From Allobosea sp. (lineage in GTDB: Bacteria; Pseudomonadota; Alphaproteobacteria; Rhizobiales; Beijerinckiaceae): 64,000 nucleotides of DNA. A program made the position numbers and the translations under genes. The notes beneath the pieces were generated by a model. It saw only the letters and a program-made list of their open reading frames with translations. It did no database searches and had not been told where the DNA came from. The stretch is taken from positions 186,001 to 250,000 of the forward strand of contig NZ_JAFKFW010000003.1 in assembly GCF_017308015.1 (NCBI RefSeq), given 5' to 3'. Shown here one piece after another: positions 20,466-40,044 of the stretch (position 1 is the stretch's first letter; every line of letters begins with the position of its first letter).

Positions 20466-20521
20466 CCGGTTCTGGCGCTTAGATTTGGAACAGATCGGTT
20501 TCGCAATTGGTTACGCTTCGA

Positions 20522-20550
20522 CATGGTCCTGCCATACTGGCCGGACCATG
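20522..20550. promoter_or_regulatory. 29-bp near-perfect palindrome in a divergent gap
   Basis: CATGGTCCTGCCA, three central bases, then TGGCCGGACCATG: 12 of 13 positions pair. It lies 57 bases upstream of the D-lactate dehydrogenase gene and 109 before the thioesterase gene, which point away from each other. The TGGTCC/GGACCA core resembles GntR-type operators, but no regulator gene is adjacent, so the ligand and protein are unknown. Confidence 0.45.
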
Positions 20551-20658
20551 ATGCTGACGCCGCTTGCGAGCGATGCATACTAGATCAAGCGACCATGAGA
20601 TGGGCAGCGGCAATATTGCGGCCGTCCCTTGAACCAGGCGCCTGTCAGGGAGGCGAAG

Positions 20659-21231: not shown

Positions 21232-21243
21232 ACGACGATCATC

Positions 21244-22053: not shown

Positions 22054-22063
22054 AGGCGTTAAA

Positions 22064-22109
22064 GCATCGCCCCGAAAAGTGCGACGCGGTTTTCGGGCAA
22101 AGCCGATGC
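22064..22109. repeat. 46-bp dispersed imperfect palindrome, copy 1
   Basis: Begins GCATCG and ends CGATGC, with internal CCCGAAAAGTGCGACGC and TTTTCGGGC arms. It lies between btaB and the channel gene. Two further copies of the same 46-base length occur at 46960 and 50726. The type (GCATCGGACC...AAAAGTGG...TTTTCGG...TCCGATGC) is a familiar intergenic repeat of Hyphomicrobiales genomes. Confidence 0.7.
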
Positions 22110-22132
22110 AAGAACAAAAGACCCGCGCACCG

Positions 22133-22810
22133 CTATGCCGCGTCCCGTTGCCGCGTCGCCACCGCATGGACCGCATAACCGCGATAGGCCACGCCGGTCC
22201 GGCAATCGGCCCCGGCCGCTTCCGCCATGGCCTGCACGACCTCGGCCAGATCCTCGCGCGGCGTGACATGGAACAGCGCGAGCCAGCGCAGCAGCGCCAC
22301 CTTGAACGGCGCCGGCAAACCCGCCTGATCGCCGAAATCGACGATATGCAGCGAACCGCCCGGAGCGAGACGCCGCAGAGCCTCGACGACGACGCCCTGC
22401 CAGGGCGGGATCATCGACAGCGCATAGGAGATCACGATCCGGTCGAAACCGGCGCGGCCAAACAGCGCCTGCGGATCGAAGCCGGTGGCATCCGCCTGCG
22501 CGAGCCTGATCCGCCCCTCAAGCCCGGCCTTTGAAACCGAACCTTGCGCCGTCGCCAGCATCGCGCTGGAAACGTCGAGCCCGTAACAGGCGCAATCCGG
22601 ATGGCGCCGTGCGATCCGGATCAGGTTGCGCCCGGTGCCGCAGCCGATCTCCAGCACGCTTCCGCCTTTCGGCGGCTGCAAGCCGTCGATGAGCTGGTCG
22701 CGGCCGAGCAGGTAGAACTTCCGGCTGGCATCGTAGAAATGGCGCTGGTGCCGGTAGATCCGGTCCATCAGCCCGGCGGCCGAGCCGGCCGGCGCCTCTG
22801 CGGCGCTCAC
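22133..22810 (-). CDS. btaB: Diacylglyceryl-homoserine N-methyltransferase
   Basis: SAM-dependent enzyme that adds three methyl groups to diacylglyceryl-homoserine to give the betaine lipid DGTS. 225 residues from the GTG at 22810, which has AGGAG eight bases upstream and overlaps the btaA stop (GTGA). N-terminal YRHQRHFYDASRKFYLLGRDQLI is the typical BtaB start; SAM motif I is VLEIGCGTGRNL, with GLDVS and DFGD further on. Pairing with btaA makes the assignment strong. Confidence 0.92.
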   Translation of the reverse strand: MSAAEAPAGSAAGLMDRIYRHQRHFYDASRKFYLLGRDQLIDGLQPPKGGSVLEIGCGTGRNLIRIARRHPDCACYGLDVSSAMLATAQGSVSKAGLEGRIRLAQADATGFDPQALFGRAGFDRIVISYALSMIPPWQGVVVEALRRLAPGGSLHIVDFGDQAGLPAPFKVALLRWLALFHVTPREDLAEVVQAMAEAAGADCRTGVAYRGYAVHAVATRQRDAA

Positions 22811-24072
22811 CGGGCGGGCTCCTGGAGCACATAGAGATGGAAGCCGCCATAGATCGCCGAGCGATCCTGCCGGCAGAGATCGCGGCTCTTCGCCTCCTCG
22901 TAATGCCACTGGCCGAGGATCGCAGCCGGGATACGGCCCGGCAGCAGGCGCTCATCGGCGGCGGTGCGGAAGATCACCCGCGCACCCGGCCGGGCCGTCC
23001 GCGTGATCTGCGACCACAGCGCCGTGAGATCGGCGTCGTTCATCCAGTCCTGCGCGTCGAGCAGCACATAGGCATCGCAGCTCTCCGCCGGCTGCTCTTC
23101 CAAGCAGGCCGTGACCGCGCTCTGGCGATACGAGACGCCCGAAGCACGCTCCTTCACCGCCGCGAAATGCTGCGGTTGGAGATAGGGCGGGAAGGCCGCG
23201 TCCGGCCCCTCGCCATAGCGCCGGCCGAAAGCCTGCTGGGCGAAATAATTGTCCCTGAGGTCGAAATCGCAGGCGAGGCGCTCGAGCCGGAGCTTCAGCG
23301 CGCCCAGAATGCCGTCCTCGCCATCGGCGGCCAGCGCCTTGTATTGCGCCGGCGGAATGCCGAGACCGTAGAGCGAGGCTGGCTGGCGCACCAGCCAGCG
23401 CACCAGCCTGCGCTCGAAGACCGGCGCGAGATGCCTGTCGTAGAGCGCCCGCTGCTCGGCCAAGTCGCGCGCCGCCAGCATCGCCTTGGGATTGCCGCCG
23501 AGCAATCGCGCCAGCAGATGCCCAGTGCCGATGAAGCGCCCGAGCAGGCCGTAGCGATGGAAGCCTCGAGCGAAGAGATTGATCCGGCGGCGCCCGTTCA
23601 GCCCCCGCCCCTCCCAGTAGCCCCGCGAGACGGCGTCGAGATGATCGGCGATCTCGCGGTCGTAGAGCGTGACATTGGCGCTCTCATTGGCTCGCCCGAA
23701 GAAGCGCAGGAAATCTTCCTGCTTCTCCATCCGCGCCAGCGCCGCGAGCTTGAGCCGCCCGAGCGCGATATGAGTGGCGTTGAGGTCGACGGCGCTGACT
23801 CGGATCGGCGCCGCCGTCAGATAGGACAGGATGTTGCAGGAGCCCGACGCGATCGCGACGACATGATCGCCGGCCTTGAGCTGAAGCGCCGCCATGTCGA
23901 CGACCGGGTCCTCCCAGATCTGCGGATAGACCAGCCCCGAGAAGGCGCGCGCGAACAGCCATTCCAGCATGCCGGCCTTGGAGAGCGTCTTGCTGCGCCG
24001 GACGGCCTGTCCCAGGCCCGAGCTCGTCATGCGGCGGGCCGCGCGCGCCGTTTGCGTCGCCTGTTGCGTCAC
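22807..24072 (-). CDS. btaA: SAM:diacylglycerol 3-amino-3-carboxypropyl transferase
   Basis: First enzyme of DGTS synthesis; transfers the aminocarboxypropyl group of S-adenosylmethionine to diacylglycerol, giving diacylglyceryl-homoserine. 421 residues of the DUF3419 family. Typical blocks: VYPQIWEDPVVDM near 55, IASGSCNILSYL near 78 (SAM-binding), VDLNATHIALGRLKLAAL near 98, and VLLDAQDWM near 350. GTG start at 24072 has GGGAGG seven bases upstream. A Pho-box-like element lies 46 bases before it, consistent with phosphate-limited expression known for rhizobial btaAB. Confidence 0.93.
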   Translation of the reverse strand: MTQQATQTARAARRMTSSGLGQAVRRSKTLSKAGMLEWLFARAFSGLVYPQIWEDPVVDMAALQLKAGDHVVAIASGSCNILSYLTAAPIRVSAVDLNATHIALGRLKLAALARMEKQEDFLRFFGRANESANVTLYDREIADHLDAVSRGYWEGRGLNGRRRINLFARGFHRYGLLGRFIGTGHLLARLLGGNPKAMLAARDLAEQRALYDRHLAPVFERRLVRWLVRQPASLYGLGIPPAQYKALAADGEDGILGALKLRLERLACDFDLRDNYFAQQAFGRRYGEGPDAAFPPYLQPQHFAAVKERASGVSYRQSAVTACLEEQPAESCDAYVLLDAQDWMNDADLTALWSQITRTARPGARVIFRTAADERLLPGRIPAAILGQWHYEEAKSRDLCRQDRSAIYGGFHLYVLQEPAR

Positions 24073-24117
24073 AGGTTTTCCTCCCTTTGCGGGTGGCCGG
24101 GCTGCTAGAGGAGTCGC

Positions 24118-24135
24118 GTGACGGTCCGGTGACGA
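24118..24135 (-). promoter_or_regulatory. Pho-box-like element upstream of btaA
   Basis: On the minus strand TCGTCAC, four bases (CGGA), CCGTCAC: two seven-base direct repeats with the 7-4-7 (11-base period) layout of PhoB boxes, and close to the TGTCAC half-site consensus. TAGCAG lies ten bases downstream, where a -10 would fall if the box replaced the -35. The spacer is G+C-rich, unlike the usual A+T-rich one. Confidence 0.5.
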
Positions 24136-24260
24136 TGCCAGGGGAGTGCCCACGGCTTCGTGAAAAAGCTAACCGGCGCGGGGCTGAAATCAGACGCGGG
24201 AAACGCCATATTGAGGCTAAGAGAGCCAATGAGGCGCCTCCCGCTGACAAGGAGATCGCA

Positions 24261-24701
24261 ATGGGTCTGATGAGCATGTTCGGCGAGCCGAAGGAACAGG
24301 ACGAGAGCTTCCCTTTCCGACTCTCGGACGCTGAGTGGCGCGCGCGGCTGACGCCGGAGCAATATCAGGTCCTGCGCGGGCACGGCACGGAGCGGGCCGG
24401 CTCCTGCGCTCTGAACTACGAGAAGCGCGCCGGTACCTTCTCCTGCGCCGGCTGCGGCCAGAAGCTGTTCCGGTCGGGCAAGAAATTCGAGAGCGGCACC
24501 GGCTGGCCGAGCTTCGACCAGCCGCTGGAAGGCGCGGTCGAGACCAGCGAGGATCGTAAGTTCGGCATGGTCCGCGTCGAGGTGCATTGCGCGAATTGCG
24601 GCGGCCATCTCGGCCACGTCTTCCCGGACGGCCCGCCACCCACCGGCCTGCGCTACTGCATCAACGGCGTGGCGATGGATTTCGAGCCGGAAGCGGCCTG
24701 A
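24261..24701 (+). CDS. msrB: Peptide-methionine (R)-S-oxide reductase
   Basis: Repairs methionine-R-sulfoxide in proteins using thioredoxin. 146 residues, started by an ATG six bases after AAGGAG. Zinc is held by Cys62/Cys65 (SCAGC) and Cys110/Cys113 (HCANC); the catalytic Cys133 lies in RYCINGVAMDF; GTGWPSF and GHLGHVF are further family signatures. Divergent from btaA; the intervening region carries the Pho-box-like element on the other strand. Confidence 0.96.
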   Translation: MGLMSMFGEPKEQDESFPFRLSDAEWRARLTPEQYQVLRGHGTERAGSCALNYEKRAGTFSCAGCGQKLFRSGKKFESGTGWPSFDQPLEGAVETSEDRKFGMVRVEVHCANCGGHLGHVFPDGPPPTGLRYCINGVAMDFEPEAA

Positions 24702-24719
24702 TTATCACTTCGTTCCAAC

Positions 24720-24766
24720 AAAAAGGCCCGGGTACCCCTCTCTCGGAGGGAAAGGGGTACCCGGGC
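24720..24766 (-). terminator. Strong intrinsic terminator after the AidB-type gene
   Basis: Perfect 13-bp arms GCCCGGGTACCCC (24726-24738) and GGGGTACCCGGGC (24754-24766) with a 15-base loop; on the minus strand five T follow. It lies between the convergent msrB and acyl-CoA dehydrogenase genes and may block readthrough from both sides, though only the minus strand has the T-run. Confidence 0.85.
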
Positions 24767-24775
24767 TAAAAGAGT

Positions 24776-26425
24776 CTAGTTCACCAGCGGAACCGCCCGC
24801 CGCGCCAGCGCCGCCGCATCGACGCCCAGTGGCAGGTCGCCGAACTGCCCTGACCAGCCCCCCCCAAGCCGCGTCGCCATGAAGGCGTCCGCCGCGTCTG
24901 TCGGCGCGAAGCGCAACAGCAGCGAACCCTGCAGCATCAACGCCAGCTTCTCGGTCAATCGCCGCGCCTGCCCCTCGTTGCGCATCATCTCCGGCAGATC
25001 GCCCTCCAGCCGCTTCAGCGCCGCATCGTAACGCCGATCCGTTCCTGCAGCGGCCATCAGCTCCGCCCGCAGCACGTCGACCGCCCCCTCATCGCGCGCC
25101 AGCGAGCGCAGCACGTCGAGGCAGATGACGTTGCCCGAGCCTTCCCAGATGGCGTTGAGTGGCGCCTCCCGATAGAGCCGCGCCATCGGGTTCTCCTCGA
25201 TGAAGCCGTTGCCGCCATGGCATTCCAGCGCCTCGGTGACGACGGCCGGCGCGCGCCGCGTGATCCAGTACTTCGCGATCGGCGCCCCGACCCGCGCCAG
25301 GAGCCGCTCGCTTTCGGACACCTCCTGCCGATCGAGCGCCGCGAACAGCCGGAACGCGAGCCAGGCAGCGGCCTCCGCCTCGATGGCGATATCGGCGAGC
25401 ACGTTCTGCATGATCGGCTGGTCGATCAGCGCCTTCTGGAAAGCGCGGCGATGCTGCGCGTGATGCGCCGCGAGCGAGACCGCCATCCGCATCAGCCCGG
25501 AGGACGCCGCCGCGATATCGAGCCGCGAATTGTGATTCATCGACAGGCCAGTCCGGATACCCCGGCCCGGTTCGCCGATGAGGTGGCCGATCGCGCCTCT
25601 GAACTCGACCTCGGAAGAGGCATTGGAACGATTGCCGACCTTGTCCTTGAGCCGCTGGATCGCGATACCGTTGCGCCCGCCGTCCGGCAGCCAGCCCGGC
25701 ACGGCGAAGCAGGAGATGCCCTCGGCCGTGCGCGCCAGCGTCAGGAAGACGTCGGAATGCGGCACCGAGAAGAACCACTTCCGCCCATGCAGCGAGAAGG
25801 TGCCGTCGCGATTATCCTCGGCAGAAGTCTGAGTCTGCCTCAGATCCGAGCCGCCCTGCGTCTCCGTCATCGCCGTGCCGACGGTCGCTCCCGTCTTGAG
25901 GTGGGCCGGTCCCTGCCGCGGGTCATAGCGGTCGGAGGTGACGAGCGAGCCCCATTGCTCCCACACGGCCGCATCCGGTTTCAGCACCGGCACGGCGGCA
26001 TAGGTCATGCTGATCGGACAGCAGATACCGCTCTCCGCCCCGTACCAGAGATATTGCAGGGCGGCGCGAGCCACCTGCGCGCCGGATTCCGGCCGGTTCC
26101 AGGCGAGCGCATGCGCCTCCTGCCCGATGGCGAGCCCCATCAACTCATGCCACGCCGGATGGAAGGCGATCTCGTCGATCCGGTTGCCGAAACGGTCGAA
26201 GGCTTTCAGTTCAGGCGGGTAACGATTGGCGAGATAGGCCAGCTCCTGCACCCGTGCCGAACCGACCGTCCGCCCCGCCTCGCTCAAGCGTGCGCGCGCC
26301 CAGTCGGCTCCGAAGGCCGAGACGATGCCGGGCAGCACCGGATCGGCGGCGAAGGCGTCGTACTCCGCCAGCACCGGCACCTGATTGGTGACCTCCCAGC
26401 GCGCCGTTTCGCCTAGCTCAGCCAT
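24776..26425 (-). CDS. aidB: Acyl-CoA dehydrogenase family protein, AidB type
   Basis: 549-residue FAD protein of the AidB branch, longer than ordinary acyl-CoA dehydrogenases (about 390) because of the extra C-terminal domain. MTETQGGSDLRQTQT near 200 is the FAD-binding signature of this branch; KWFFSVPHSDVFLTLAR and ECHGGNGFIEENPMARLYREAPLNAIWEGSGN are also diagnostic. In E. coli AidB is induced by alkylation damage and binds DNA; the native reaction is unclear. The ATG chosen follows GGGAGG. Divergent from uvrD, so both may answer to DNA damage, although no LexA box was recognised between them. Confidence 0.88.
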   Translation of the reverse strand: MAELGETARWEVTNQVPVLAEYDAFAADPVLPGIVSAFGADWARARLSEAGRTVGSARVQELAYLANRYPPELKAFDRFGNRIDEIAFHPAWHELMGLAIGQEAHALAWNRPESGAQVARAALQYLWYGAESGICCPISMTYAAVPVLKPDAAVWEQWGSLVTSDRYDPRQGPAHLKTGATVGTAMTETQGGSDLRQTQTSAEDNRDGTFSLHGRKWFFSVPHSDVFLTLARTAEGISCFAVPGWLPDGGRNGIAIQRLKDKVGNRSNASSEVEFRGAIGHLIGEPGRGIRTGLSMNHNSRLDIAAASSGLMRMAVSLAAHHAQHRRAFQKALIDQPIMQNVLADIAIEAEAAAWLAFRLFAALDRQEVSESERLLARVGAPIAKYWITRRAPAVVTEALECHGGNGFIEENPMARLYREAPLNAIWEGSGNVICLDVLRSLARDEGAVDVLRAELMAAAGTDRRYDAALKRLEGDLPEMMRNEGQARRLTEKLALMLQGSLLLRFAPTDAADAFMATRLGGGWSGQFGDLPLGVDAAALARRAVPLVN

Positions 26426-26497
26426 TGCTGCCACCTCCCTGTGGAACGGGATATAAAATGATCGCTCCGGCAGGGCGCAATCCTGACGGCGACGCCC

Positions 26498-26503
26498 TAT
26501 ATT
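26498..26503 (+). promoter_or_regulatory. Probable -10 element of the uvrD promoter
   Basis: TATATT inside CCCTATATTCGCCGG (26495-26509), the same 15 bases found before the tmRNA gene. It sits 38 bases ahead of the uvrD start. No good -35 was seen. Confidence 0.45.
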
Positions 26504-26540
26504 CGCCGGAGAACGAATCACGCACGAGCAGCGCACACCC

Positions 26541-28919
26541 TTGTCCGACGCAGACCCCTTTTCCGCTCCCCCGCCCCGCCCCGGCGGCCTCGCCGCGCGC
26601 GCTGCCGCGCAGCCGGCGGCCGGCTATCTCGCGGGGCTGAACCCGGAGCAGCGTCAGGCGGTCGAGGCGACGGAAGGCCCGGTTCTGGTGCTGGCCGGCG
26701 CCGGCACCGGTAAGACCCGCGTGCTGACCACCCGCATCGGCCACCTGATCTCGACCAGCCGCGCCTACCCGTCTCAGATCCTCGCCGTCACCTTCACGAA
26801 CAAGGCGGCGCGCGAGATGAAGGAGCGCGTCGCCCATCTCGTCGGCCCCGTGGCGGAGGGCATGCCCTGGCTCGGCACCTTCCATTCGATTTCGGCCAAG
26901 CTCCTGCGCCGCCATGCCGAATTGCTCGACCTGCGCAGCGACTTCACCATCCTCGACACCGACGACCAGATCCGCCTGATGAAGCAGGTGATTCAGGCCG
27001 AGGGCATCGACGAGAAGCGCTGGCCCGGCCGCATGCTGGCAGGCTTCATCGATAGCTGGAAGAATCGCGGTCTCGCGCCCAAGGATGTGCCCGCGGGCGA
27101 AGCCGCCGTCTTCGCCCATGGCAAGGGCGGCAAGCTCTATGCCGCCTATCAGGAGCGCCTGAAGGCGCTGAACGCCGTCGATTTCGGCGATCTGCTGCTG
27201 CACTGCCTGACATTGTTCCGCGACTATCCGGACGTGCTCCAGACCTATCACGACCGCTTCCGCTACATCCTCGTCGACGAGTATCAGGACACCAACACGG
27301 CCCAGTATCTCTGGCTGCGGCTGCTGGCGCAGGGCCGCCGCAACATCTGCTGCGTCGGCGACGACGACCAGTCGATCTATGGCTGGCGTGGCGCCGAGGT
27401 CGACAACATCCTGCGCTTCGAGCACGATTTTCCAGGTGCGACGGTGATCCGGTTGGAGCGCAACTACCGCTCCACCGGCCATATCCTCGCGACCGCCTCG
27501 AAGCTGATCGCCCGCAACGAAGGCCGTCTCGGCAAGACCCTGCGCACCGAAGACGCGCTCGGCGAGAAGGTCACCATCACCGGTGCGTGGGACAGCCAGG
27601 AGGAAGCGCGCCTGATCTCCGACGAGATCGAGGCGATGCAGGCCAAGAAATACAATCTCGCCGAGGTCGCGGTGCTCGTGCGCATCTCCGCCCAGATGCG
27701 GGAGATCGAGGAACGCTTCGTCCAGGCCGGCGTGCCTTATCGCGTCATCGGCGGCCCGCGCTTCTACGAGCGCGCCGAAATCCGCGATGCGCTCGCCTAT
27801 CTGCGCTGCGTGGTCTCAGCCACCGACGATCTCGCCTTCGAGCGCATCGTCAACGTGCCCAAGCGCGGCCTCGGCGATACGACGGTCCGGCTCCTGCACG
27901 AGCACGCCCGCGCCACCGGTTTCTCGCTGATGCAGTCGGCCCGCGCCGCAGTCGAGAGCGACGAGCTGAAGTCCAAGGCTCGCACGTCGCTGCGCGAGCT
28001 GGTCGAGGCCTTCGGCCGTTGGCAGGCCAACGCCGAGAACATGCCCCAGGGCGAGCTTGCCGAGCTGGTGCTGGAAGAGTCCGGCTATACCGAAATGTGG
28101 AAGAAAGACCGGTCGGCCGACGCCGCCGGGCGGCTGGAAAACCTCAAGGAACTGGTGCGCTCGCTCGACGGGTTCCCCGACCTGCCCGCCTTCCTCGAGC
28201 ACGTCGCGCTGGTGACGGACCTCGCGGACGGCGAGGCCGAGGCGCGCGTCTCGATCATGACCCTGCACGCTGCCAAGGGGCTGGAATTCGACACCGTCTT
28301 CCTGCCCGGCTGGGAGGAAGGCCTGTTCCCGAACCAGCGCGCCCTCGACGAGAGTGGCCGCGCCGGCCTCGAGGAAGAACGCCGCCTCGCCCATGTCGGC
28401 CTCACCCGCGCCCGCAAGAAGCTGAAGCTCTATTTCGCCTCGAACCGGCGCATCCACGGCCTCTGGCAGACCAGCCTGCCCTCGCGCTTCATCGACGAAC
28501 TGCCGGAGGAACATGTCGAGGTCGAGCAGGCCCCGACCAGCTATAGCCAAGGCGGCTACGGCGCCTCGCGCTTCGACCGGATGGAGAGCTTCGGCTCCAG
28601 CTACAACACGCCGGGCTGGCAGCGCGCGCAGGAGAACCGGGCGAGGAATGGCGGCGGCAGCGGTTTCTCGGAAAGCGGCCGCGGCTTCGGCCAGGGCAAT
28701 TTCGGCGGCGGCTCGCGCCAGCGCGGTCCGCTGCTGATCGAGGGCGAGCTGACCGCGAAATCATCCGGCGAATCCGCCTATGGCGAGGGCGCCCGCGTCT
28801 TCCACGTCAAGTTCGGCCCCGGCTCCGTCGCCAGCGTCGACGGCAACAAGCTCACCGTCGATTTCGACAAGGCCGGCCGGAAGATGGTGCTCGACTCGTT
28901 CGTGCAGAAGGCGGGCTAG
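26541..28919 (+). CDS. uvrD: ATP-dependent 3'-5' DNA helicase UvrD/PcrA
   Basis: Superfamily 1 helicase for nucleotide-excision and mismatch repair, displacing UvrC-oligonucleotide products and RecA. 792 residues. Walker A GAGTGKT near 53-59, motif II VDEYQDTN near 250, GDDDQSIYGWRGA near 275, LERNYRS near 311, TLHAAKGLEF near 574 and VGLTRARKKL near 617. A C-terminal Tudor-like module (KFGPGSVASVDGNKLTVDFDKAG) is as in PcrA. The only available start is TTG, and no ribosome-binding site is strong. Confidence 0.95.
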   Translation: MSDADPFSAPPPRPGGLAARAAAQPAAGYLAGLNPEQRQAVEATEGPVLVLAGAGTGKTRVLTTRIGHLISTSRAYPSQILAVTFTNKAAREMKERVAHLVGPVAEGMPWLGTFHSISAKLLRRHAELLDLRSDFTILDTDDQIRLMKQVIQAEGIDEKRWPGRMLAGFIDSWKNRGLAPKDVPAGEAAVFAHGKGGKLYAAYQERLKALNAVDFGDLLLHCLTLFRDYPDVLQTYHDRFRYILVDEYQDTNTAQYLWLRLLAQGRRNICCVGDDDQSIYGWRGAEVDNILRFEHDFPGATVIRLERNYRSTGHILATASKLIARNEGRLGKTLRTEDALGEKVTITGAWDSQEEARLISDEIEAMQAKKYNLAEVAVLVRISAQMREIEERFVQAGVPYRVIGGPRFYERAEIRDALAYLRCVVSATDDLAFERIVNVPKRGLGDTTVRLLHEHARATGFSLMQSARAAVESDELKSKARTSLRELVEAFGRWQANAENMPQGELAELVLEESGYTEMWKKDRSADAAGRLENLKELVRSLDGFPDLPAFLEHVALVTDLADGEAEARVSIMTLHAAKGLEFDTVFLPGWEEGLFPNQRALDESGRAGLEEERRLAHVGLTRARKKLKLYFASNRRIHGLWQTSLPSRFIDELPEEHVEVEQAPTSYSQGGYGASRFDRMESFGSSYNTPGWQRAQENRARNGGGSGFSESGRGFGQGNFGGGSRQRGPLLIEGELTAKSSGESAYGEGARVFHVKFGPGSVASVDGNKLTVDFDKAGRKMVLDSFVQKAG

Positions 28920-28924
28920 CAATT

Positions 28925-29422
28925 ATGCCCCGCGACGCCAGAGAGATAGCCAATATAATACTTGATAGATCGGAATATTTAAATTTACATATCTCAAATC
29001 TATCACTTAATAAAATATTATACTTTGTAAATGGCGTGAATTATAAATTCACAAATGAAGATCTATTAATGGACAGATTTGAAGCTTGGGAGTATGGGCC
29101 TGTAATTAAAGAGATATACTATCAATTCAAAAAACATGGCTCCGAGAGAATAACAAGCCGAGCAACAACCACAGATTTTTTGACTGGAAAAACAGAGATA
29201 TTTCCAAAAACAATAACCAGCGATGAGTTAGATCGGATTTTGCCAGTCATTGATTTTTTTTCCCGCGTTCCCTCTGGAAAGCTTGTGGATTGGAGCCATA
29301 TGGAAGGCTCGCCATGGTACGAGACATGGCATCATGCAGGGCGATTGAATGTTGGGATGAAAATCTCGAACGAGAGTATGAGGGCCTATTTTAGGAGTTC
29401 GTGGTCAAAAGCGGGAGCATGA
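28925..29422 (+). CDS. Panacea-domain (DUF4065/SocA-like) protein, candidate antitoxin
   Basis: 165 residues. The Panacea pattern is visible: ILDRSEYLNLHISNLSLNKILYFVNG at about 13-38 (family 'LNKLLYF'), DRFEAWEYGPVIKEIYYQFKKHG at about 50-72 (family 'E.W.YGPV...Y..FK.Y'), and a helical C-terminus with GSPWYETWH near 128. In other systems this domain is the antitoxin partner of many unrelated toxins, and in SocA it is a proteolysis adaptor. A+T-rich codon use differs from all neighbours. One base separates its stop from the next gene, so the pair is likely co-translated. No good ribosome-binding site was seen. Confidence 0.8.
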   Translation: MPRDAREIANIILDRSEYLNLHISNLSLNKILYFVNGVNYKFTNEDLLMDRFEAWEYGPVIKEIYYQFKKHGSERITSRATTTDFLTGKTEIFPKTITSDELDRILPVIDFFSRVPSGKLVDWSHMEGSPWYETWHHAGRLNVGMKISNESMRAYFRSSWSKAGA

Positions 29423-29423
29423 A

Positions 29424-30146
29424 TTGGCCAATTTGAAACTTCCGACTGTTCAGCATTTCTCGACACATTGCGGCGGAACTGTTGCCGACATCCGAAAGAG
29501 GATTGAGAAACGAGCCGGCGGCGGAAGTGGCATCAGCTATGAAACGCTTCGGACACAATGGCTTTTCGATCGATTCCAACTGGGAATTGACGCCGAACAG
29601 ATCGAGAAAGCTATCAAAGCCACTTTGAAACCTAAAAACGCCAAACATAATTTGGCTGCGCTTCAGGCGTTATCAAAATATATCAAAGAGAACTCTTTTT
29701 CTGGAGCGATCCGCGTCGATCCTCGGCTGTTCCCCATCGGACGCGGCCTGTATGTTCCAGTCAATCCTCCGTTTGTTCTGATTGACGCTAGGCGCCCCCG
29801 ATTGTTTTGGCCAAGCTTCTGGAAAACACCCGGGAAATTGAATGGCATCCCAGGGAGAGTTTTTATATCAATCCTTGAACGAGAGATGTTCGGCCGTTCA
29901 GATTTTAGATCACTCGACCTTGATTTTGTTGACCTCTCTTGCCCAACTGGAAGCACAACTCGTGGCGCACGAGTGTATAATAGAAAGGACTTTCATAGCC
30001 TTTCAGACAAAGAGCTAGCACAAGAGCTTGAGAAATTCGTAGAAGCTTATTTCCTAGCAAAGGAGCCTGTTTCCAAAGAGCGAGCAGATTCCGAACGGCC
30101 CACTCAGTCTCCAGGCAGCGACCTGCCACTTTTTCCGGAAGGTTAG
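29424..30146 (+). CDS. Unrecognised 240-residue protein paired with the Panacea gene
   Basis: I do not recognise this family. It starts at TTG with GGGAG seven bases upstream, one base after the Panacea stop. Residues 1-100 look helical and charged (ADIRKRIEKR, DAEQIEKAIKATLK, ALSKYIKEN); 100-175 have a mixed fold with PFVLIDARRPRLFWPSFWKTPGK and IPGRVFISILEREMFG; the last 30 residues are polar and probably disordered. No signal peptide, membrane helix, nucleotide-binding loop or metal motif is obvious. By position after a Panacea-domain gene it could be the toxin of a toxin-antitoxin pair, or another effector; that is inference. Base composition is intermediate (first 60 bases about 45% G+C). 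Confidence 0.7.
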   Translation: MANLKLPTVQHFSTHCGGTVADIRKRIEKRAGGGSGISYETLRTQWLFDRFQLGIDAEQIEKAIKATLKPKNAKHNLAALQALSKYIKENSFSGAIRVDPRLFPIGRGLYVPVNPPFVLIDARRPRLFWPSFWKTPGKLNGIPGRVFISILEREMFGRSDFRSLDLDFVDLSCPTGSTTRGARVYNRKDFHSLSDKELAQELEKFVEAYFLAKEPVSKERADSERPTQSPGSDLPLFPEG

Positions 30147-30159
30147 GCCCAGCGCTAAG

Positions 30160-30447
30160 ATGGGTTTCTACGTCGCCATCATCGAGGATGCCGGCCCTGA
30201 CCATGCCGTCGGCGTCTGGTTTCCCGATCTGCCCGGCTGCTTCGCGGCCGGCGATACGCTGGATGAAGCCTTGCTCAATGCTCCCGAGGCAGTTGCACTC
30301 TGGATCGAAGCTCAAGGCGGTTCAGCCCCCCGCGCCCGGACGTCCAGCGAATTGCGCAGCGATCCAGAGACTTCCGCAGACATGGCCGCACACGCCATAG
30401 CTCTGATCCCGGCACCCGGCCTATCGCTGCAGCCAGCAGCGGAGTAG
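30160..30447 (+). CDS. HicB-family antitoxin-like protein (no HicA seen)
   Basis: 95 residues. FYVAIIEDAGPDHAVGVWFPDLPGCFAAGDTLDEALLNAPEAVALWIEA is the partial RNase-H fold of HicB antitoxins (strand, strand, 'PDLPGC.A.GDT..EA...A.EA'). There is no C-terminal helix-turn-helix and no hicA toxin gene next to it. Base composition is normal for the chromosome. Either a solitary antitoxin or a domesticated regulator; it lies 13 bases after the cassette. Confidence 0.8.
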   Translation: MGFYVAIIEDAGPDHAVGVWFPDLPGCFAAGDTLDEALLNAPEAVALWIEAQGGSAPRARTSSELRSDPETSADMAAHAIALIPAPGLSLQPAAE

Positions 30448-30489
30448 AAGCGGCTCGTCCCTGCCGCAGCTTCAGCGATCCGACCGACC

Positions 30490-30912
30490 ATGCCTCCCGA
30501 GATCACCCTCACCGACGCCGAAGACGACGCTTTCCGCAAGCTGCTCGGCGAAGGCCTGAAAGACTATAACGACGCGGCGATCGGCCGGCACGATCGCCAG
30601 GAACTGCAGATCCGCATCAGCGATCCGGAAACGGGGAAGCCGATCGGCGGGCTCGCCGGGCGCACCTCGCTCGGCCTGCTCTTCATCGATACCGTCTACC
30701 TGCCGAAAAGCCTGCGCGGCACCGGCATCGGCAGCCGCATCCTCGCCATGGCCGAGGAGGAAGGCCGCAGGCGCGGCTGCAGCAAGGCCGTGCTCTTCAC
30801 CATCAGCTTCCAGGCGCCGGAGTTCTACAAGAAGCTCGGCTGGCAGGTTTTTGGCGAGATCGCCCCCAAGCCGCCGGGCGCGACCCGCATCTACCTGACC
30901 AAGGACCTCTGA
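30490..30912 (+). CDS. GNAT family N-acetyltransferase
   Basis: 140 residues. Motif A VYLPKSLRGTGIGSRILAMAEEEGRRRGC (about 74-100) and QAPEFYKKLGWQVFGEI near the C-terminus define the fold. Acceptor unknown. The nearest named relatives by feel are the small YjdJ/ElaA-sized acetyltransferases, but nothing specific is visible. It is convergent with the HxlR gene four bases away and follows the HicB-like gene on the same strand. Confidence 0.8.
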   Translation: MPPEITLTDAEDDAFRKLLGEGLKDYNDAAIGRHDRQELQIRISDPETGKPIGGLAGRTSLGLLFIDTVYLPKSLRGTGIGSRILAMAEEEGRRRGCSKAVLFTISFQAPEFYKKLGWQVFGEIAPKPPGATRIYLTKDL

Positions 30913-30916
30913 GCGC

Positions 30917-31336
30917 TCAAGCCCCGCCTTCCCGCTCGCGGAACGCTTTTCGCGCTGCCGAAACCTCGGCGTAGTAGGTCTCGGCCCAGGTCCAGACGCC
31001 GCAGAAGGCGGCGCTGAGTTCGCGCCCCAGCTCCGTCAGCGTGTAGTCGACATGCGGCGGGATCACCGGATGGACGGTGCGAATGACGAGCCCGTCGCGC
31101 TCCATCTCGCGCAGCGTCTTGGTCAGCATCTTCTGGCTGATGCCGCCGACGATACGGCCGACCTCGGTGAAGCGCAGCGTGCCGTGCTCCTCCAGCGCTT
31201 CCAGCACCAGCATCGTCCATTTGTCCGCCACCTGCGCGATGACCTGCCGCACCAGCGACTCCACCGCCGGACTGACCGGCGGGATGGCCTCGCTGCGCTG
31301 ATGCATCGCCGCCATGGCGGCCCGGATCGCCTGCAT
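30917..31336 (-). CDS. HxlR-family winged-helix regulator
   Basis: 139 residues. The HxlR core is clear: QVADKWTMLVLEALEEHGTLRFTEVGRIVGGISQKMLTKTLREMERDGLV, then VDYTLTELGREL. No cysteine is placed for redox sensing in the N-terminal region. The ATG at 31336 has GGAGAG six bases upstream; the longer frame is not protein-like. It is divergent from a short-chain dehydrogenase gene with 102 bases between starts, the usual HxlR-target layout; GTATGG occurs twice there (31358, 31394) but without a clear palindrome. Confidence 0.88.
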   Translation of the reverse strand: MQAIRAAMAAMHQRSEAIPPVSPAVESLVRQVIAQVADKWTMLVLEALEEHGTLRFTEVGRIVGGISQKMLTKTLREMERDGLVIRTVHPVIPPHVDYTLTELGRELSAAFCGVWTWAETYYAEVSAARKAFREREGGA

Positions 31337-31438
31337 CGCACACTCTCCTTTTGGTGCGTATGGCACTTCCAAGCGCCTTCTTTCCATTGAAGAGTATGGG
31401 CGCCATCTCGTCTCGCGCAACCACGAGAGGGTCTTGCC

Positions 31439-32194
31439 ATGAAAATTTCCGGAAACACCATCCTCGTCACCGGCGGCGGCTCGGGCATCGGCCGGGCGCT
31501 GGCCGAGGCGCTGCACGCCAAGGGCAACAAGGTCGTCATCGCCGGGCGCCGCGAAGCCGTGCTCGATGCGGTCACCGCCAACAATCCCGGTATGGAATCG
31601 ATGCTGCTCGACATCCAGGAAGCGGCCGATATCGCTGCCTTCGCTCAAAGGGCCGCCGAGCGCTTCCCGAGCCTCAATGCCGTCATCAACAATGCCGGCA
31701 TCATGAAGCCGGAGAACGTCCCGGCCGCCGACAACCTCGCCATCGCCGAGGAAACGGTCGCGACCAACCTGCTCGGACCGATCCGCCTGACGACGGCGCT
31801 CCTGCCGCATCTCCTGAAGCAGCCGCGCGCCGCGGTGCTGACCGTCTCGTCGGGCCTCGCGTTCGTGCCGCTGGCGGCGACCCCGACCTACAGCGCGACC
31901 AAGGCCGCGATCCATTCCTGGTCGATCGGCCTGCGCGAGCAGCTCAAGGGTACATCGGTCGAGGTCATCGAGATCGCACCGCCCTATGTGCAGACCGAGC
32001 TGCTCGGCCCTCATCAGGCTGTCGATCCAGCCGCGATGCCCCTCGCCGATTTCATCACGGAGGTGATGACGATCCTCGAAACCCAGCCCGAGGCCACCGA
32101 GGTCATCGTCGAGCGCTGCAAGCCGCTGCGCTTCGCCGAGGCGACTGGCACCTTCGGTCAGGTCTTCGCGGCGCTGAACGCGCAGCGCACCTGA
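31439..32194 (+). CDS. Short-chain dehydrogenase/reductase
   Basis: 251 residues, classical SDR fold. NAD(P)-binding TGGGSGIGRAL near 11-21, NNAG near 84-87, catalytic Tyr and Lys in YSATKAA near 152-158 with the Ser before it (VSSGLAF). Resembles the DltE/YvaG-like reductases often controlled by HxlR regulators and induced by reactive electrophiles. Substrate unknown. The start ATG is preceded by GAGAGGG. Divergent from the HxlR gene. Confidence 0.87.
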   Translation: MKISGNTILVTGGGSGIGRALAEALHAKGNKVVIAGRREAVLDAVTANNPGMESMLLDIQEAADIAAFAQRAAERFPSLNAVINNAGIMKPENVPAADNLAIAEETVATNLLGPIRLTTALLPHLLKQPRAAVLTVSSGLAFVPLAATPTYSATKAAIHSWSIGLREQLKGTSVEVIEIAPPYVQTELLGPHQAVDPAAMPLADFITEVMTILETQPEATEVIVERCKPLRFAEATGTFGQVFAALNAQRT

Positions 32195-32206
32195 GGCGGG
32201 CGCTCC

Positions 32207-32980
32207 TCACGCCACCGCAGCCATGTTCGAAGCGCAGACAGCCCGATTCCGGCCCTGCATCTTCGCACGGTAGAGCTGCGCGTCTGCTTCGGCGATCAAA
32301 TGCGCGAGCATCATGCCGCCGGCCCAGCCGGCGGCACCGATACTCACGGTCAGGCTGACAGCCGCGCCACCCGGCGTCTCGATCCTGAGGCGCCGGACAG
32401 CATCGAGTATCCGTTTGGCAACGGCTCTTGCCTCCGAAAGGTCGATCTGCGGAAGGCAAACCGCAAACTCCTCGCCTCCGAGCCTGCCGGAGAGGCCACC
32501 CTCGCCCACCGCTTCCACGATCGTCCGCGCCAGCCTTCGCAAGGCGTCGTCGCCGACCGGATGGCCGAAGCGGTCGTTGACCTGCTTGAAGTGGTCGGCA
32601 TCGATGAAGAGCAGCGTTCCTTCGCCGCCAGCGGCCACCGCTTTCTCCAGCTCCGCAAGGAAGCTTTCGCGGTTCAGCAGCCCGGTCAGGCCATCGCGGC
32701 GCGCCCTTTCCAGCAAGGCCTCATGCGTCGCCGACAATTCGTCATGCAACCGCGCGATCTCGCCATGTGCGTCCTTCAGGCGCTGCGCCTGCCGGAACTG
32801 CCAGGCGCTCGCCGGCCAGGCGATCAGGAGCGGGCAGAGGATGCACATCAGCCAGGCAGTGCCGTCCACGACTCCGCCGAGCATCGGGACCACCGTCAGC
32901 GCCAGAGCAAGCGAAGCCGCGATCGACAGCAATGTCGCGAGGCTTGCCTTCAGAATGATCGCGCGTGTCGAGGCCGTCAT
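32207..32980 (-). CDS. Membrane-anchored diguanylate cyclase
   Basis: 257 residues from the ATG at 32980; an upstream ATG at 33037 adds 19 unlikely residues. Two transmembrane helices (about 10-30 and 37-54) precede a short coiled segment (DAHGEIARLHDELSATHEALL) and the GGDEF domain, which starts DGLTGLLNRESF and carries GGEEF with the preceding residues LSGRL; the RxxD inhibitory site is missing, as in the other GGDEF protein of this window. Makes cyclic di-GMP at the inner membrane. The signal is unknown. Confidence 0.88.
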   Translation of the reverse strand: MTASTRAIILKASLATLLSIAASLALALTVVPMLGGVVDGTAWLMCILCPLLIAWPASAWQFRQAQRLKDAHGEIARLHDELSATHEALLERARRDGLTGLLNRESFLAELEKAVAAGGEGTLLFIDADHFKQVNDRFGHPVGDDALRRLARTIVEAVGEGGLSGRLGGEEFAVCLPQIDLSEARAVAKRILDAVRRLRIETPGGAAVSLTVSIGAAGWAGGMMLAHLIAEADAQLYRAKMQGRNRAVCASNMAAVA

Positions 32981-33077
32981 GCCCCGCGGGTAGCAGCGAA
33001 TACTGAACGGGGGGTTTAGCAGCGCCGCCCCGGCCATTTCCGATGACAGCGGCGGGGGCGCCTGCTAAGCCGGCGCC

Positions 33078-34025
33078 ATGCGTGAAGGCCTCCTGCCAGC
33101 GACGGTCGCGACCGTCCTCGAACTTTCCACCTCGGGCGAACAGGCCCGGGCCCTCACCGAATTGCTGGGAGAGATTTTCGACCCGACCGAAACCGCGATC
33201 TCGGCCTTCGAGGTCGAGGACGGGATCACCACGCTGTCGCTGAACATCCCGTGGAAGGTCGAGATCTATTTCGCCAATCCGCCCGACGAGGACGCGGTGC
33301 GCGATCTGCTGCGCCCCATCGTCGGCGAACTCGTGGACATCACGCCCTTCACCACGGTCAACACCAAGGACTGGGTCGCCAACAGCCTGGACGGGCTGAA
33401 GCCCGTGCGCGCCGGCCGCGTCCTCGTCCATGGCGCGCATGACCGGCACGTGGTCCGCACCAATGACGTTGCCATCGAGATCGAGGCCGCGCTCGCGTTC
33501 GGCACCGGCCATCACGGGACCACCGCCGGCTGCCTGCTCGCGCTCGATGCCGAGCTGAAGAAGCGCCGCCCGCGCCATGGCATCGATATCGGCACCGGCA
33601 CCGGCATTCTCGGGCTGGCGCTCGCCAAGCAGATCAAGCGCAAGGTCGTCGCCGGCGATATCGACGCGGTCGCGGTCGAGGTCTCCGCCCATAACGCCCG
33701 GCTCAACCACGCGCCGAACGCGCTCGATCTCTATGTCGCGCCGGGCCTGCGCCACGCCAAGGCCTGGCGCCCCGGCCATTTCGATTTCGTCTTCGCCAAT
33801 ATCCTGGCCGGCCCGCTGAAGCGGCTCGCCCCGTCGATCGCGCGCGTGCTCTCGTCGAACGGCACGCTGATCCTGTCAGGCCTGCTGGCGATGGACGTCG
33901 CCGGCGTCGTCTCGGCTTACCGGCATCAGGGCGTCTATCTCGCCAGCCATTCGTTGCGCGAAGGTTGGGCGACGCTGGTCATGAAAAAAGGCGGCGCAGC
34001 CCAGAGGCCACGCCGCCTTGTCTGA
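33078..34025 (+). CDS. prmA: Ribosomal protein L11 methyltransferase
   Basis: Trimethylates L11 (RplK) with SAM. 315 residues, family length. ALAFGTGHHGTTAGCLLAL contains the GTGHHGTT motif of PrmA; SAM motif I is GIDIGTGTGILGLAL; FANILAGPLKRLAP is the family NILA.PL motif. The last codons (MKKGGAAQRPRRLV) overlap a hairpin and A-run that act as a terminator on the other strand. Confidence 0.95.
   Translation: MREGLLPATVATVLELSTSGEQARALTELLGEIFDPTETAISAFEVEDGITTLSLNIPWKVEIYFANPPDEDAVRDLLRPIVGELVDITPFTTVNTKDWVANSLDGLKPVRAGRVLVHGAHDRHVVRTNDVAIEIEAALAFGTGHHGTTAGCLLALDAELKKRRPRHGIDIGTGTGILGLALAKQIKRKVVAGDIDAVAVEVSAHNARLNHAPNALDLYVAPGLRHAKAWRPGHFDFVFANILAGPLKRLAPSIARVLSSNGTLILSGLLAMDVAGVVSAYRHQGVYLASHSLREGWATLVMKKGGAAQRPRRLV
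33984..34019 (-). terminator. Terminator for leftward small genes, inside the end of prmA
   Basis: Stem AAGGCGGCG/CGCCGCCTT with a 14-base loop, and six T on the minus strand. It would end transcripts from the 42-residue gene at 34072-34200; the same bases are the last codons of prmA. Confidence 0.65.
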
Positions 34026-34071
34026 CCTCCTGCGCTTCCTCGGGGAAGCGCGAGGCCGTTACGCGTTCGGC

Positions 34072-34200
34072 TCAGAAGCCGATATAGCCGTACTTCTTCT
34101 CGGCATCGGCCTGCAGGCTGCGGGCATCGTGCCAGACGGCGGCGGCGAACTTCGCGGCATCGGCGATCTGTTCGTAGATGTGCTTGATGATGGCGATCAT
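34072..34200 (-). CDS. 42-residue conserved-looking small protein
   Basis: ATG with AAGGA about eight bases upstream and a TGA stop, too short for the usual ORF cut-off. Sequence starts MIAIIKHIYEQIADAAKFAA and ends KKYGYIGF; it is one amphipathic helix with aromatic ends, no cysteine and no full membrane segment. It follows the 80-residue gene on the same strand by 56 bases and precedes a terminator, which supports a real transcription unit. Family not recognised. Confidence 0.5.
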   Translation of the reverse strand: MIAIIKHIYEQIADAAKFAAAVWHDARSLQADAEKKYGYIGF

Positions 34201-34256
34201 GATGAAGGTCCTTGAAGGTTGCCTGCTGCGCGGCGCGAGGCCGCGGCGGCATGAAT

Positions 34257-34499
34257 TCAGCGGTTGAAAGGCAGGGAGACGTCGCTTGACAGCGTCGCGG
34301 ACGGGTAGCCGCCCAGCACGATCTCGGCCTCGTTGACGAGGAGGTTGCGGGCGCGCAGTTCGCGAGCTGCTGAGCGCTGGCGGCTCGCGACGAGCGCGGC
34401 GTAGAAGCGTTGCATCAGGCCAGGCTTGCTGGCGCGGGTTTCGCCGCGGGTCCGAGCCGATACAGGCAGCAGGTCGGCATTATCCAACACGTAAGTCAT
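34257..34499 (-). CDS. 80-residue uncharacterised protein with basic helical core
   Basis: ATG preceded by GGAGA at seven bases. Residues 28-55 (MQRFYAALVASRQRSAARELRAR) form a basic amphipathic helix similar in style to the core of small DUF1127-like proteins of Hyphomicrobiales, but the match is not firm. N- and C-terminal parts are polar. Likely co-transcribed with the 42-residue gene. A+T-rich upstream bases with repeated GCATAT words (34595-34620) suggest a regulated promoter. Function unknown. Confidence 0.55.
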   Translation of the reverse strand: MTYVLDNADLLPVSARTRGETRASKPGLMQRFYAALVASRQRSAARELRARNLLVNEAEIVLGGYPSATLSSDVSLPFNR

Positions 34500-34769
34500 G
34501 GGTCCATCTCCGAAAAACGAAGGACAGTCCCGGTCGCTTCCTCGTTCTCTTATGCGACCAAGGTGGGGTCATTTCGCACTTGCGAGAAGATATGTTCGCA
34601 TATGCAAGATATGCAGAAAACGCATGCGATCCGTCCATATCCATTAATGTTTGCGCAGATTGCATAACCAATCGGCACAATGCGGAGCAGGAAGGCTGCC
34701 CCGTCCCACGGAACGGGCAGCTCGCGGCCGACGCATTTGCGCTGGCGCTTTCGCGAACGCGAGGCAACG

Positions 34770-36632
34770 ATGCCGCGACCCAAGCCGGACCCCGCCATGA
34801 CCGATTCGATCCTGCCGACCTGCCGTTTCCAGTCCTTCTCCGAGCCGAGCGATCCGAAGCTCGTCGCCGGCCGCGTCGCCGCCCTGCGCAAGGCGCTGGC
34901 AGCGCAGGGACTCGACGGCTTCGTCATCCCGCGCGCCGATGAGCATCAGGGCGAATATGTCCCGGCTCACATGGCCCGCCTCGCCTGGCTGACCGGCTTC
35001 ACCGGCTCGGCCGGCAATGCGGTGGTGCTGTCCGACAAGGCGGCGCTGATCGTCGACGGCCGCTACACCATCCAGTCGGCCGAGCAGACCGACACCACCG
35101 TCGTCACGCCGGCCCGCATGGAGGAGACGCCGCTGGAGCGCTGGGTCGAGCAGAACCTGCCGGCCGGCGGCAAGCTCGGCTACGATCCCTGGCTGCATAC
35201 GGTGGACGGCCTCGCCCGCCTCGAAAAGGCAGCGGCCGCGGCCGGCGGCAGCCTCGTCGCCGTCAAGGCCAATCCGGTCGACGCACTCTGGAGCGACCGC
35301 CCTGCCCCGCCGGCCGCACCGATCAAGGCGCATCCGGCCGCCTTCGCAGGCGAGGACAGCGCCGCGAAACTCGCCCGTATCCAGAAGGCGCTGACAGAGG
35401 CCAGGGTCGACGCACTCGTCGTTTCCGATCCGCACGCGCTCGCCTGGGTCTTCAATATCCGCGGCGGCGATGTCGAGCACACGCCGCTGCCGCTCGGCTA
35501 TTCCATCGTCCCGCGTGAAGGCCGGCCGACCGTCTTCCTCGCGCCGGAGAAGATCACCAACGAGGCCGGCGATGCGATCGGCGCCGTCGGCGAGATCGCG
35601 CCTCCGGCCGAACTCGACAAGCAGATCGCGAAACTCGGCGCGGCCAAAGCCAAGGTCCGGCTCGATGCCGCGACCGCCGCTTCGGCGCTGGCGACCCTGA
35701 TCCGCGACGCCGGCGGCACGCCCGATGCGGGCTCCGATCCGATCGCGCTGATGAAGGCGCGCAAGAACGAAGCCGAGCTGGATGGCGCCCGCAACGCCCA
35801 TCTGCGCGATGGCGCCGTCATGGTGCGCTACCTGTCCTGGCTGGCACGCGAGGCGCCGAAAGGCGGCCTCACCGAGATTGACGCCGTCGCCGCGCTCGAG
35901 GCCGAGCGTTTGAAGACCGGCCTGCTCAAGGACGTCTCCTTCACCACCATCGCCGGTGCCGGCCCCAATGCGGCGCTGCCGCATTACCGCGTCAGCGAGG
36001 CGAGCAATCGCAAGCTGGAGCCGGGCATCTTCCTGGTCGATTCAGGTGGCCAGTACGAGGACGGCACCACCGACATCACCCGCACCATGGTGATCGGCAC
36101 CCCCACGGCCGAAATGCGCGACCGCTATACCCGCGTGCTCAAGGGGCATGTGGCGATCTCGCGGCTGGTCTTCGTCAAGGGTACCTCGGGCGCGCAGCTC
36201 GACGCCTTCGCCCGGCTGCCGCTCTGGCAGGGCGGCTTCGATTTCGATCACGGCACCGGCCACGGCGTCGGCAGCTATCTCTCGGTGCATGAAGGGCCGC
36301 AGCGCCTCTCCAAGCTCGGCACCACGCCGCTGGAGCCGGGCATGATTCTCTCCAACGAGCCCGGCTACTACAAGCAGGGCGAATACGGCATCCGCATCGA
36401 GAACCTGATCGTCGTCGAGGAGCGCCGGATCCCCGGAGCCGAGCGGACGGTCTACGGCTTCGAGACGATCACCTGGTGCCCCTATGAGCGCGCCCTGATC
36501 GAGAAGGACATGCTCGATGCCGGCGAGATCGCCTGGATCGACGCCTATCACGCCAAGGTCTGGGAAAAACTCTCGCCGCAGGTCGAGGGCGAGGCGAAGG
36601 CGTGGCTGGAGCAGGCCTGCCGGCCGCTTTAG
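34770..36632 (+). CDS. pepP: Xaa-Pro aminopeptidase (M24B), long form
   Basis: Removes N-terminal residues that precede proline; di-metal enzyme. 620 residues, like the eukaryotic-type aminopeptidase P with two creatinase N-domains (about 10-150 and 185-330) before the pita-bread catalytic domain (about 340-560). Metal ligands are visible: Asp in VDSGGQYEDGTTDITRT (two Asp), His in HGTGHGVG, Glu in NEPGYY and Glu in GIRIENL. The ATG chosen follows GAGG by six bases; ATG for M-T-D-S-I, nine codons later, is also possible. C-terminal extension of about 60 residues is typical of the long form. Confidence 0.92.
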   Translation: MPRPKPDPAMTDSILPTCRFQSFSEPSDPKLVAGRVAALRKALAAQGLDGFVIPRADEHQGEYVPAHMARLAWLTGFTGSAGNAVVLSDKAALIVDGRYTIQSAEQTDTTVVTPARMEETPLERWVEQNLPAGGKLGYDPWLHTVDGLARLEKAAAAAGGSLVAVKANPVDALWSDRPAPPAAPIKAHPAAFAGEDSAAKLARIQKALTEARVDALVVSDPHALAWVFNIRGGDVEHTPLPLGYSIVPREGRPTVFLAPEKITNEAGDAIGAVGEIAPPAELDKQIAKLGAAKAKVRLDAATAASALATLIRDAGGTPDAGSDPIALMKARKNEAELDGARNAHLRDGAVMVRYLSWLAREAPKGGLTEIDAVAALEAERLKTGLLKDVSFTTIAGAGPNAALPHYRVSEASNRKLEPGIFLVDSGGQYEDGTTDITRTMVIGTPTAEMRDRYTRVLKGHVAISRLVFVKGTSGAQLDAFARLPLWQGGFDFDHGTGHGVGSYLSVHEGPQRLSKLGTTPLEPGMILSNEPGYYKQGEYGIRIENLIVVEERRIPGAERTVYGFETITWCPYERALIEKDMLDAGEIAWIDAYHAKVWEKLSPQVEGEAKAWLEQACRPL

Positions 36633-36741
36633 AACCCCACGTCATCGTCGGGCTCGTCCCGACCATCCACGTCTTCGCTGGTCGAAGGTCGCGTTCAAAA
36701 CGTGGATACTCGCCACAAGGGCCAGCATGACGGCGCGCTTG

Positions 36742-37041
36742 CTAGAGCACCATCCTGAACCCAACCACCGCAACAACCCCGACCGCGACCACGCCCAGCA
36801 AGGGCAGCCGCGTCGCGGCGAGTGCCGTCACCGCCGCCGCCGCCGTCTCCGCCCAGCCGGTCGCAAGTGCGCTCGGCGCGATCACCGCGATCAGCACAGC
36901 CGGCGGAATCGCGTCGAAAGCTGCCTGCGCGCGCGGCGAGAGGCTGAGTCGCCCGGCCAATGCCAGCCCGGCGACACGCGTGAAATAGGTCACGATCGCC
37001 ATGCCCAGGAAGGCGAGAAGATTGATCGGATCGACGCTCAC
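36742..37041 (-). CDS. azlD: AzlD branched-chain amino-acid exporter, small subunit
   Basis: 99 residues, four hydrophobic helices, AzlD domain (NLLAFLGMAIVTYFTRVAGLAL at the start, a conserved FTR...R pattern). Works with AzlC to export branched-chain amino acids or toxic analogues. GTG start overlaps the azlC stop by four bases (GTGA). Confidence 0.9.
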   Translation of the reverse strand: MSVDPINLLAFLGMAIVTYFTRVAGLALAGRLSLSPRAQAAFDAIPPAVLIAVIAPSALATGWAETAAAAVTALAATRLPLLGVVAVGVVAVVGFRMVL

Positions 37042-37751: not shown

Positions 37752-37782
37752 GCAATGGGTTCTTTCGAAGAATGTGCCGGTC

Positions 37783-38646: not shown

Positions 38647-38742
38647 GGTGCAAGCATAGACCCTCTCGCCCCGTTGCTGTCTTGAAGAAAAGTGATCGGG
38701 CACATCACGCGCCCGATCGGTTTTGCCGCTCTCGACAGAGCC

Positions 38743-39987: not shown

Positions 39988-40044
39988 GGGGTCTCTCCAT
40001 GAGGTCGCCGGAAGATGGGCGTGGCCCCGTGGAGTTTCCATGCT

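Follow-up and report, generated by a model that had tools for sequence, protein, structure and literature searches.

The two-gene cassette lying directly behind uvrD in the window (the whole 64,000-nt, or 64 kb, stretch of DNA analysed) most probably encodes a divergent SocAB-type, type VI-like toxin-antitoxin pair, a reading to which we assign a probability of roughly 70%. The tail of its SocB-like toxin would dock on the beta clamp and stall replication forks, the SocA-like antitoxin would neutralise it, and the pair would have been acquired horizontally, replacing hicA. The well-documented parts of the analysis are the SocAB-like clade to which the pair belongs, the tail of that clade and the exchange of hicA. 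The clade offers some twenty natural variants of the toxin, while the step from hicA to socAB provides a clean case of a toxin gene swapped at a chromosomal site, with the old antitoxin gene surviving. All coordinates refer to the + strand unless stated, and L-numbers denote comparison loci.

Identity of the two genes

The cassette is tightly packed between its neighbours. Its 5′ neighbour is the uvrD helicase gene (26541..28919, recognised by Pfam), and 5 bases past the uvrD stop codon, which ends at 28919, the socA-like antitoxin gene begins with ATG (28925..29422, 165 aa). The socB-like toxin gene (29424..30146, 240 aa) starts one base past the socA-like stop codon with TTG, a start backed by the relatives, whose first residues align with it. 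A hicB-like antitoxin gene (30160..30447; Pfam HicB_lk_antitox, E 4e-16) follows as the 3′ neighbour. G+C content is 33.3% in the first 300 bases of the socA-like gene, 39.2% over that gene and 48.5% over the socB-like gene, compared with 67.7% in uvrD and 67.0% in the whole window; the 500-base stretch from 28951 is the window's G+C minimum, at 37.8% (50-base steps over 64 kb; mean 67.0%, sd 4.0). Coordinates and composition thus agree with the sequence-only reading, which had described a low-G+C two-gene cassette with its second gene one base on, between uvrD and a HicB-like gene. Of the limits it had given, 28921..30146, the start lies 4 bases 5′ of the ATG at 28925. A promoter scan returned four promoter-like sites against 1.1 expected, all on the minus strand and none ahead of the socA-like gene; expression of socAB by read-through from uvrD is conceivable, if weakly indicated.

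By its domain content the first gene is a Panacea/SocA-type antitoxin, as had been proposed. It matches Pfam SocA_Panacea (PF13274) with E 9.5e-18 and 65.6 bits, above the curated cut-off of 25.7, and carries at residues 58-60 the tripeptide GPV, named as the Panacea signature (PMC8832971); it therefore has both marks of a Panacea antitoxin, the domain above cut-off and the signature. Its match to NCBIfam SocA_antitoxin (NF047745) is strong (E 8.9e-42, 142.7 bits) and falls under the equivalog cut-off of 190.

The second protein, which the sequence-only reading could not place in any family, can now be assigned to a divergent branch of SocB. Its own match to NCBIfam SocB_toxin (NF047746) is weak (E 5.9e-4, 18.9 bits, equivalog cut-off 210), and it has no significant Pfam family. 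Comparison of the clade profile with a profile of six SocB-family proteins gave an hhalign probability of 98.3% (E 1.6e-14, 205 columns), and SocB_toxin is matched by 15 of the 17 aligned clade members; together with the NCBIfam match, these results rule out an unplaceable partner. Pfam searches with the SocB clade yielded scattered families with a best E of 0.023, and sequence searches of the PDB gave a best E no better than 0.3. For the 17 aligned members, adenosine deaminase is the one other family listed besides SocB_toxin, matched by a single member at E 0.029, which looks like chance. Within the clade, the window SocB shares 43% identity with L059 and 21-28% with most other members in long alignments. 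Profile searching of both proteins, which had been suggested as a check, thus recovered SocA_antitoxin and SocB_toxin, and because both matches miss their equivalog cut-offs the pair is filed as a SocAB-like sister clade and not as SocAB proper. On homology, then, the second gene is a divergent SocB-like protein and the pair a SocAB-like sister group, its likeness to Caulobacter crescentus SocB being drawn through the NCBIfam models, the six SocB-family proteins and published descriptions rather than through a direct protein comparison.

The exchange behind uvrD and the spread of the clade

The site behind uvrD is occupied differently within the genus. The uvrD gene itself is present in every one of the 26 genomes sampled from the genus, the window's own among them. 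In 10 of the 25 genus-mates it is followed by hicA (84-100% identical to the copy in L015, L015 counted) and hicB; four have a GNAT gene and no hicAB, and in ten no such gene is seen within the approximately 1.5 kb examined (162 bases only in L034). The remaining one, L037, carries a different hicA-hicB unit, its HicA 48% identical, ahead of the usual hicB; this looks like a further instance of a different toxin-antitoxin unit occupying the place of hicA. Over the same extent of DNA (roughly 1.5 kb, 162 bases in L034), socAB is present behind uvrD in none of the 25.

L015, the genus-mate used as reference (UvrD 97%), allows the exchange to be delimited. By blastn its homology to the window ends at 28915 and resumes at 30169, within the first hicB codons, which places the unstranded left and right exchange boundaries at 28916..28924 and 30147..30168, respectively. 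The L015 counterpart of socAB is a stretch of 327 bases holding hicA (Pfam HicA_toxin, E 2.9e-19), and a search of the window's own genome (56 contigs, estimated 100% complete) for HicA_toxin gave nothing at E ≤ 0.001. Taken together, the break in homology, the hicA gene in the L015 gap and the lack of HicA in the own genome are most simply explained if socAB took the place of hicA together with the sequence upstream of it and the opening bases of hicB, and left hicB intact as an orphan. HicAB would thus be the resident of the site, kept in 10 of 25 genus-mates and represented by a different hicAB in one more, whereas the window genome retains hicB only. A mobile element was considered as the carrier and, as judged by repeats and tRNA genes, rejected, there being no direct repeats at the cassette ends and no tRNA gene within positions 20000-40000 of the window.

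Relatives are patchily distributed. Searches with the window protein found them in 3 of 385 genomes of the class, own included, and searches with the SocB model in 5 of 385, own not among these; in the window's family they occur in 5 of 119 genomes, own included, and in this 119-genome sample a SocB match is absent from anywhere in the four other genus members drawn. In the family to which L052 belongs, 119 genomes were screened with the Caulobacter SocB as the goal; this yielded the loci L090 and L091 and no identified C. crescentus SocB. The named genome collection (genome_contigs) holds 20 clade loci. As a side observation, the SocB model matched none of 14 control genomes, Caulobacter vibrioides among them, and the control strain of that species may lack socB.

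The two genes keep company. Of the 20 genome_contigs loci, 19 have a SocA-type ORF just 5′ of SocB, the one in L058 being truncated and the L044 and L045 pairs being the same; the exception, L056, has no upstream SocA-type ORF, and its own SocB frame is cut at the N-terminus. In L058 (214-1000, apparently on the same contig as L004 and L009) the cassette seems to be broken: its SocA frame stops early, and its SocB frame begins late. In phylogenetic trees the window copy pairs with L059, a Hyphomicrobiales metagenome genome, for both SocA (support 94/94, not starred) and SocB (100/100), which fits two genes travelling together. Partner swapping had been hinted at by the blastp order for SocA, in which L051 and L055 rank above L059, and was rejected because both trees join the window with L059, within the limits set by long branches and by SocA support that is not starred.

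Flanks compared among the window and 19 of the 20 loci (L058 omitted) are mostly unrelated: those of L044 and L045 are identical, sharing is otherwise convincing only in L053/L055 and L041/L046, and L049 shows one weak match to the window flanks (26% identity, E 8.9e-11). The related pairs in variable surroundings that the sequence-only reading had proposed to look for were thus found. Its view of an acquired toxin-antitoxin unit is supported by the homology, the distribution, the differing flanks and the lack of the pair behind uvrD in the 25 genus-mates; SocB homology together with this last result also speaks against the other outcome it had envisaged, a housekeeping enzyme conserved at the locus.

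Patchy occurrence and flanks that mostly differ are in keeping with an accessory, mobile function and, with it, the proposal that the cassette is an anti-phage unit acting by abortive infection, in which SocB would halt replication during infection. Toxin-antitoxin networks that include Panacea have been related to phage defence systems (PMC10440598), and such a role would be compatible with the clamp mechanism, so that the odds of the two overlap. Neither protein matches any family in PADLOC-DB 2.0.0 (E up to 1), which weighs against the proposal, and we regard it as unlikely, the evidence neither favouring nor refuting it. Among plasmids and phages, tblastn with the window SocB and a central relative found nothing, and a scan of viral contigs for the SocB clade gave 37 stretches, none of them confirmed. 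More distant SocAB pairs than those of the window clade do exist on such replicons: Rhodobacter phage RC1 (L093, 1786-3015) carries a SocA-SocB pair whose SocB scores 72.3 bits against NF047746, and Rhizobium plasmid pCB3171_1 (L092, 1660-3024) carries another, both without a clamp-type tail. In the record of phage RC1 the annotation of the SocB frame is confined to its last 110 codons. The SocA match of phage RC1 is shared by Rhodovulum phage RS1.

The C-terminal tail and the mode of action

Complete SocB proteins of the clade end in a linker that is poorly conserved, varying in both length and sequence, followed by a short hydrophobic terminal motif, as in DQPGLFD, DQPNLFD, NQPSLFGR, SDQLGLFD, SQLSLI and GQGDLF. 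By their sequence these tails have the shape of the bacterial clamp-binding motif, for which the consensus QL(S/D)LF has been given (PMC9690074). The window SocB carries SDLPLF (residues 232-237, 30117..30134), a clamp-binding-type motif without the leading Q, in a C-terminus predicted to be disordered, and its nearest relative, L059, retains DLPLF. In the AlphaFold2 model of the window SocB, pLDDT falls below 50 at residues 228-235 and 238-240, and low confidence here and in the model of a relative is read as a disordered tail.

With the pattern Qxx[LMIF][FLI], which is QL(S/D)LF loosened after the tails had been seen, the last 15 residues match in 15 of 20 clade proteins; among 364 background proteins there are 4 matches, and among 24 other Panacea partners there are none. 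A looser pattern, [LM]F in the last 12 residues, gives 15/20, 17/364 and 3/24, respectively. The clade count drops L047, which is cut at a contig end, and the 24 other partners come from 30 Panacea loci, less 4 with a SocB partner and 2 without a downstream ORF. When tails were shuffled (2000 rounds), the mean was 0.25 and the maximum 3, against 16 of 26 SocB proteins observed. Five copies escape the Q pattern, namely those of the window, L046, L051, L058 and L059. None of the six SocB-family sequences matches it either; five of them have hydrophobic tails (SGPLL, TNPFNF, RGLF, DDLFS and ESFAF), and L091, also among the six, has none. The conserved tail of the clade points to contact with the clamp, and in the window copy the clamp-binding motif is putative. 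Separately, a far SocB relative in L066 (1924-2688; E 5.1e-7 with the SocB profile) adjoins a Panacea gene and ends in -EPGLF.

In C. crescentus the target of SocB is DnaN, the beta clamp, to which it binds, stopping elongation; SocA serves as the adaptor that hands SocB to ClpXP (PMC5422525, PMC5812544, PMC7566177). The window pair shares with that system the order socA-socB, a Panacea antitoxin, a homologous SocB body and, at the level of the clade, a clamp-type C-terminal motif; it differs in lying below both NCBIfam cut-offs, in belonging to a separate clade and in having SDLPLF without the Q. It likewise resembles the PanAT (Panacea) type II pairs, in which a Panacea antitoxin with the GPV signature precedes the toxin, whereas its toxin falls in the SocB group and the Q-type clamp tail is found in none of the 24 other Panacea partners. 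The other Panacea antitoxins tested are described as neutralising their toxins by direct binding, without ClpXP or Lon (PMC8832971), which makes the type VI step uncertain for the window pair. The RipA toxin-antitoxin system of Streptococcus pneumoniae is also described as targeting the sliding clamp (PMC12795458).

Given the function of C. crescentus SocAB and the direct-binding Panacea antitoxins, the best-supported model is that SocB stalls replication through a tail that contacts the clamp and that SocA restrains it; toxicity, clamp binding and the mode of neutralisation are what we infer for the window pair on this basis. SocB would consist of a folded, probably inactive nuclease-like domain and a disordered C-terminal tail, whose motif would insert into the hydrophobic cleft of the DNA polymerase beta clamp (DnaN). 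Once on the clamp, SocB would displace Pol III and other clamp clients, and replication forks would stall. SocA, the Panacea protein, would bind SocB and keep it harmless, either by handing it to ClpXP, the Caulobacter mode, or by inhibiting it directly, the mode of other Panacea antitoxins. The cassette would have arrived by horizontal transfer and replaced hicA behind uvrD, leaving the orphan hicB.

The tail could instead be incidental here, in which case the cassette would be a Panacea type II pair with a SocB-derived toxin whose target is not the clamp but, for example, DNA that it grips with its nuclease-like fold. The Q is missing from the window tail, the SocB proteins of phage RC1 and the Rhizobium plasmid keep the body and the Panacea partner with no clamp-like tail, and the body resembles DNA-binding nucleases of the RecB/Cas4 type. 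Against this, the motif is highly enriched in the window's own clade while the linker preceding it varies, and the nearest relative keeps DLPLF, which leaves a non-clamp target rather unlikely. That the cassette is a decayed remnant without function is very improbable: it replaces part of another locus and has a G+C content unlike that of its host, yet both frames are intact and closely coupled and family-conserved residues are retained.

A predicted nuclease-like fold in SocB

The body of SocB (about residues 5-216, 29436..30071) is predicted to adopt a PD-(D/E)XK nuclease fold of the RecB/Cas4 type. The AlphaFold2 model of the window SocB has a pLDDT of 84.9 and a pTM of 0.81; its top Foldseek/VIA matches are RecB/Cas4/exonuclease-type structures, and the model of a relative gave the same fold, so that the predicted structure has the features expected of this fold. 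Compared with RecB/Cas4-type nucleases (AdnAB, AddAB, ACE1, MGME1, RecE and Exo5), identity is about 10%, and the window SocB differs in lacking a (D/E)xK triplet throughout its 240 residues. Of the other 16 clade members, 11 have such triplets, though at sites other than the mapped one. At the position mapped as catalytic, by sequence alignment and strand order rather than by superposed structures, (D/E)xK is found in 0 of 25 proteins (window and relatives).

It is tempting to propose that the SocB-type toxins are PD-(D/E)XK nucleases of the RecB/Cas4 type that have lost their activity and now serve to plug the sliding clamp, with a nuclease-dead, DNA-binding body and a disordered C-terminal clamp-binding peptide locking the clamp together with the adjacent DNA; the window clade would then be a second, wide branch, mobile among alphaproteobacteria and able to displace toxin genes, here hicA. 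We put this forward tentatively, at somewhat less than even odds, and its inactive-nuclease component is the boldest part, drawn from predicted models and sequence. If true, an origin from a nuclease fold would account for the emergence of a clamp inhibitor, and SocB would be expected to have a DNA-binding surface.

The fold match to RecB/Cas4/exonuclease-type nucleases could also be taken to mean that the SocB-like protein is an active PD-(D/E)XK nuclease toxin, which is highly improbable given the lack of the triplet in the window SocB and the residues at the alignment-mapped position. SocB is thus probably inactive as a nuclease: that position reads S-F-W in 17 of 17 clade proteins, [D/N]-x-R in the six SocB-family sequences, H-P-R in the phage protein and F-P-R in the plasmid protein.
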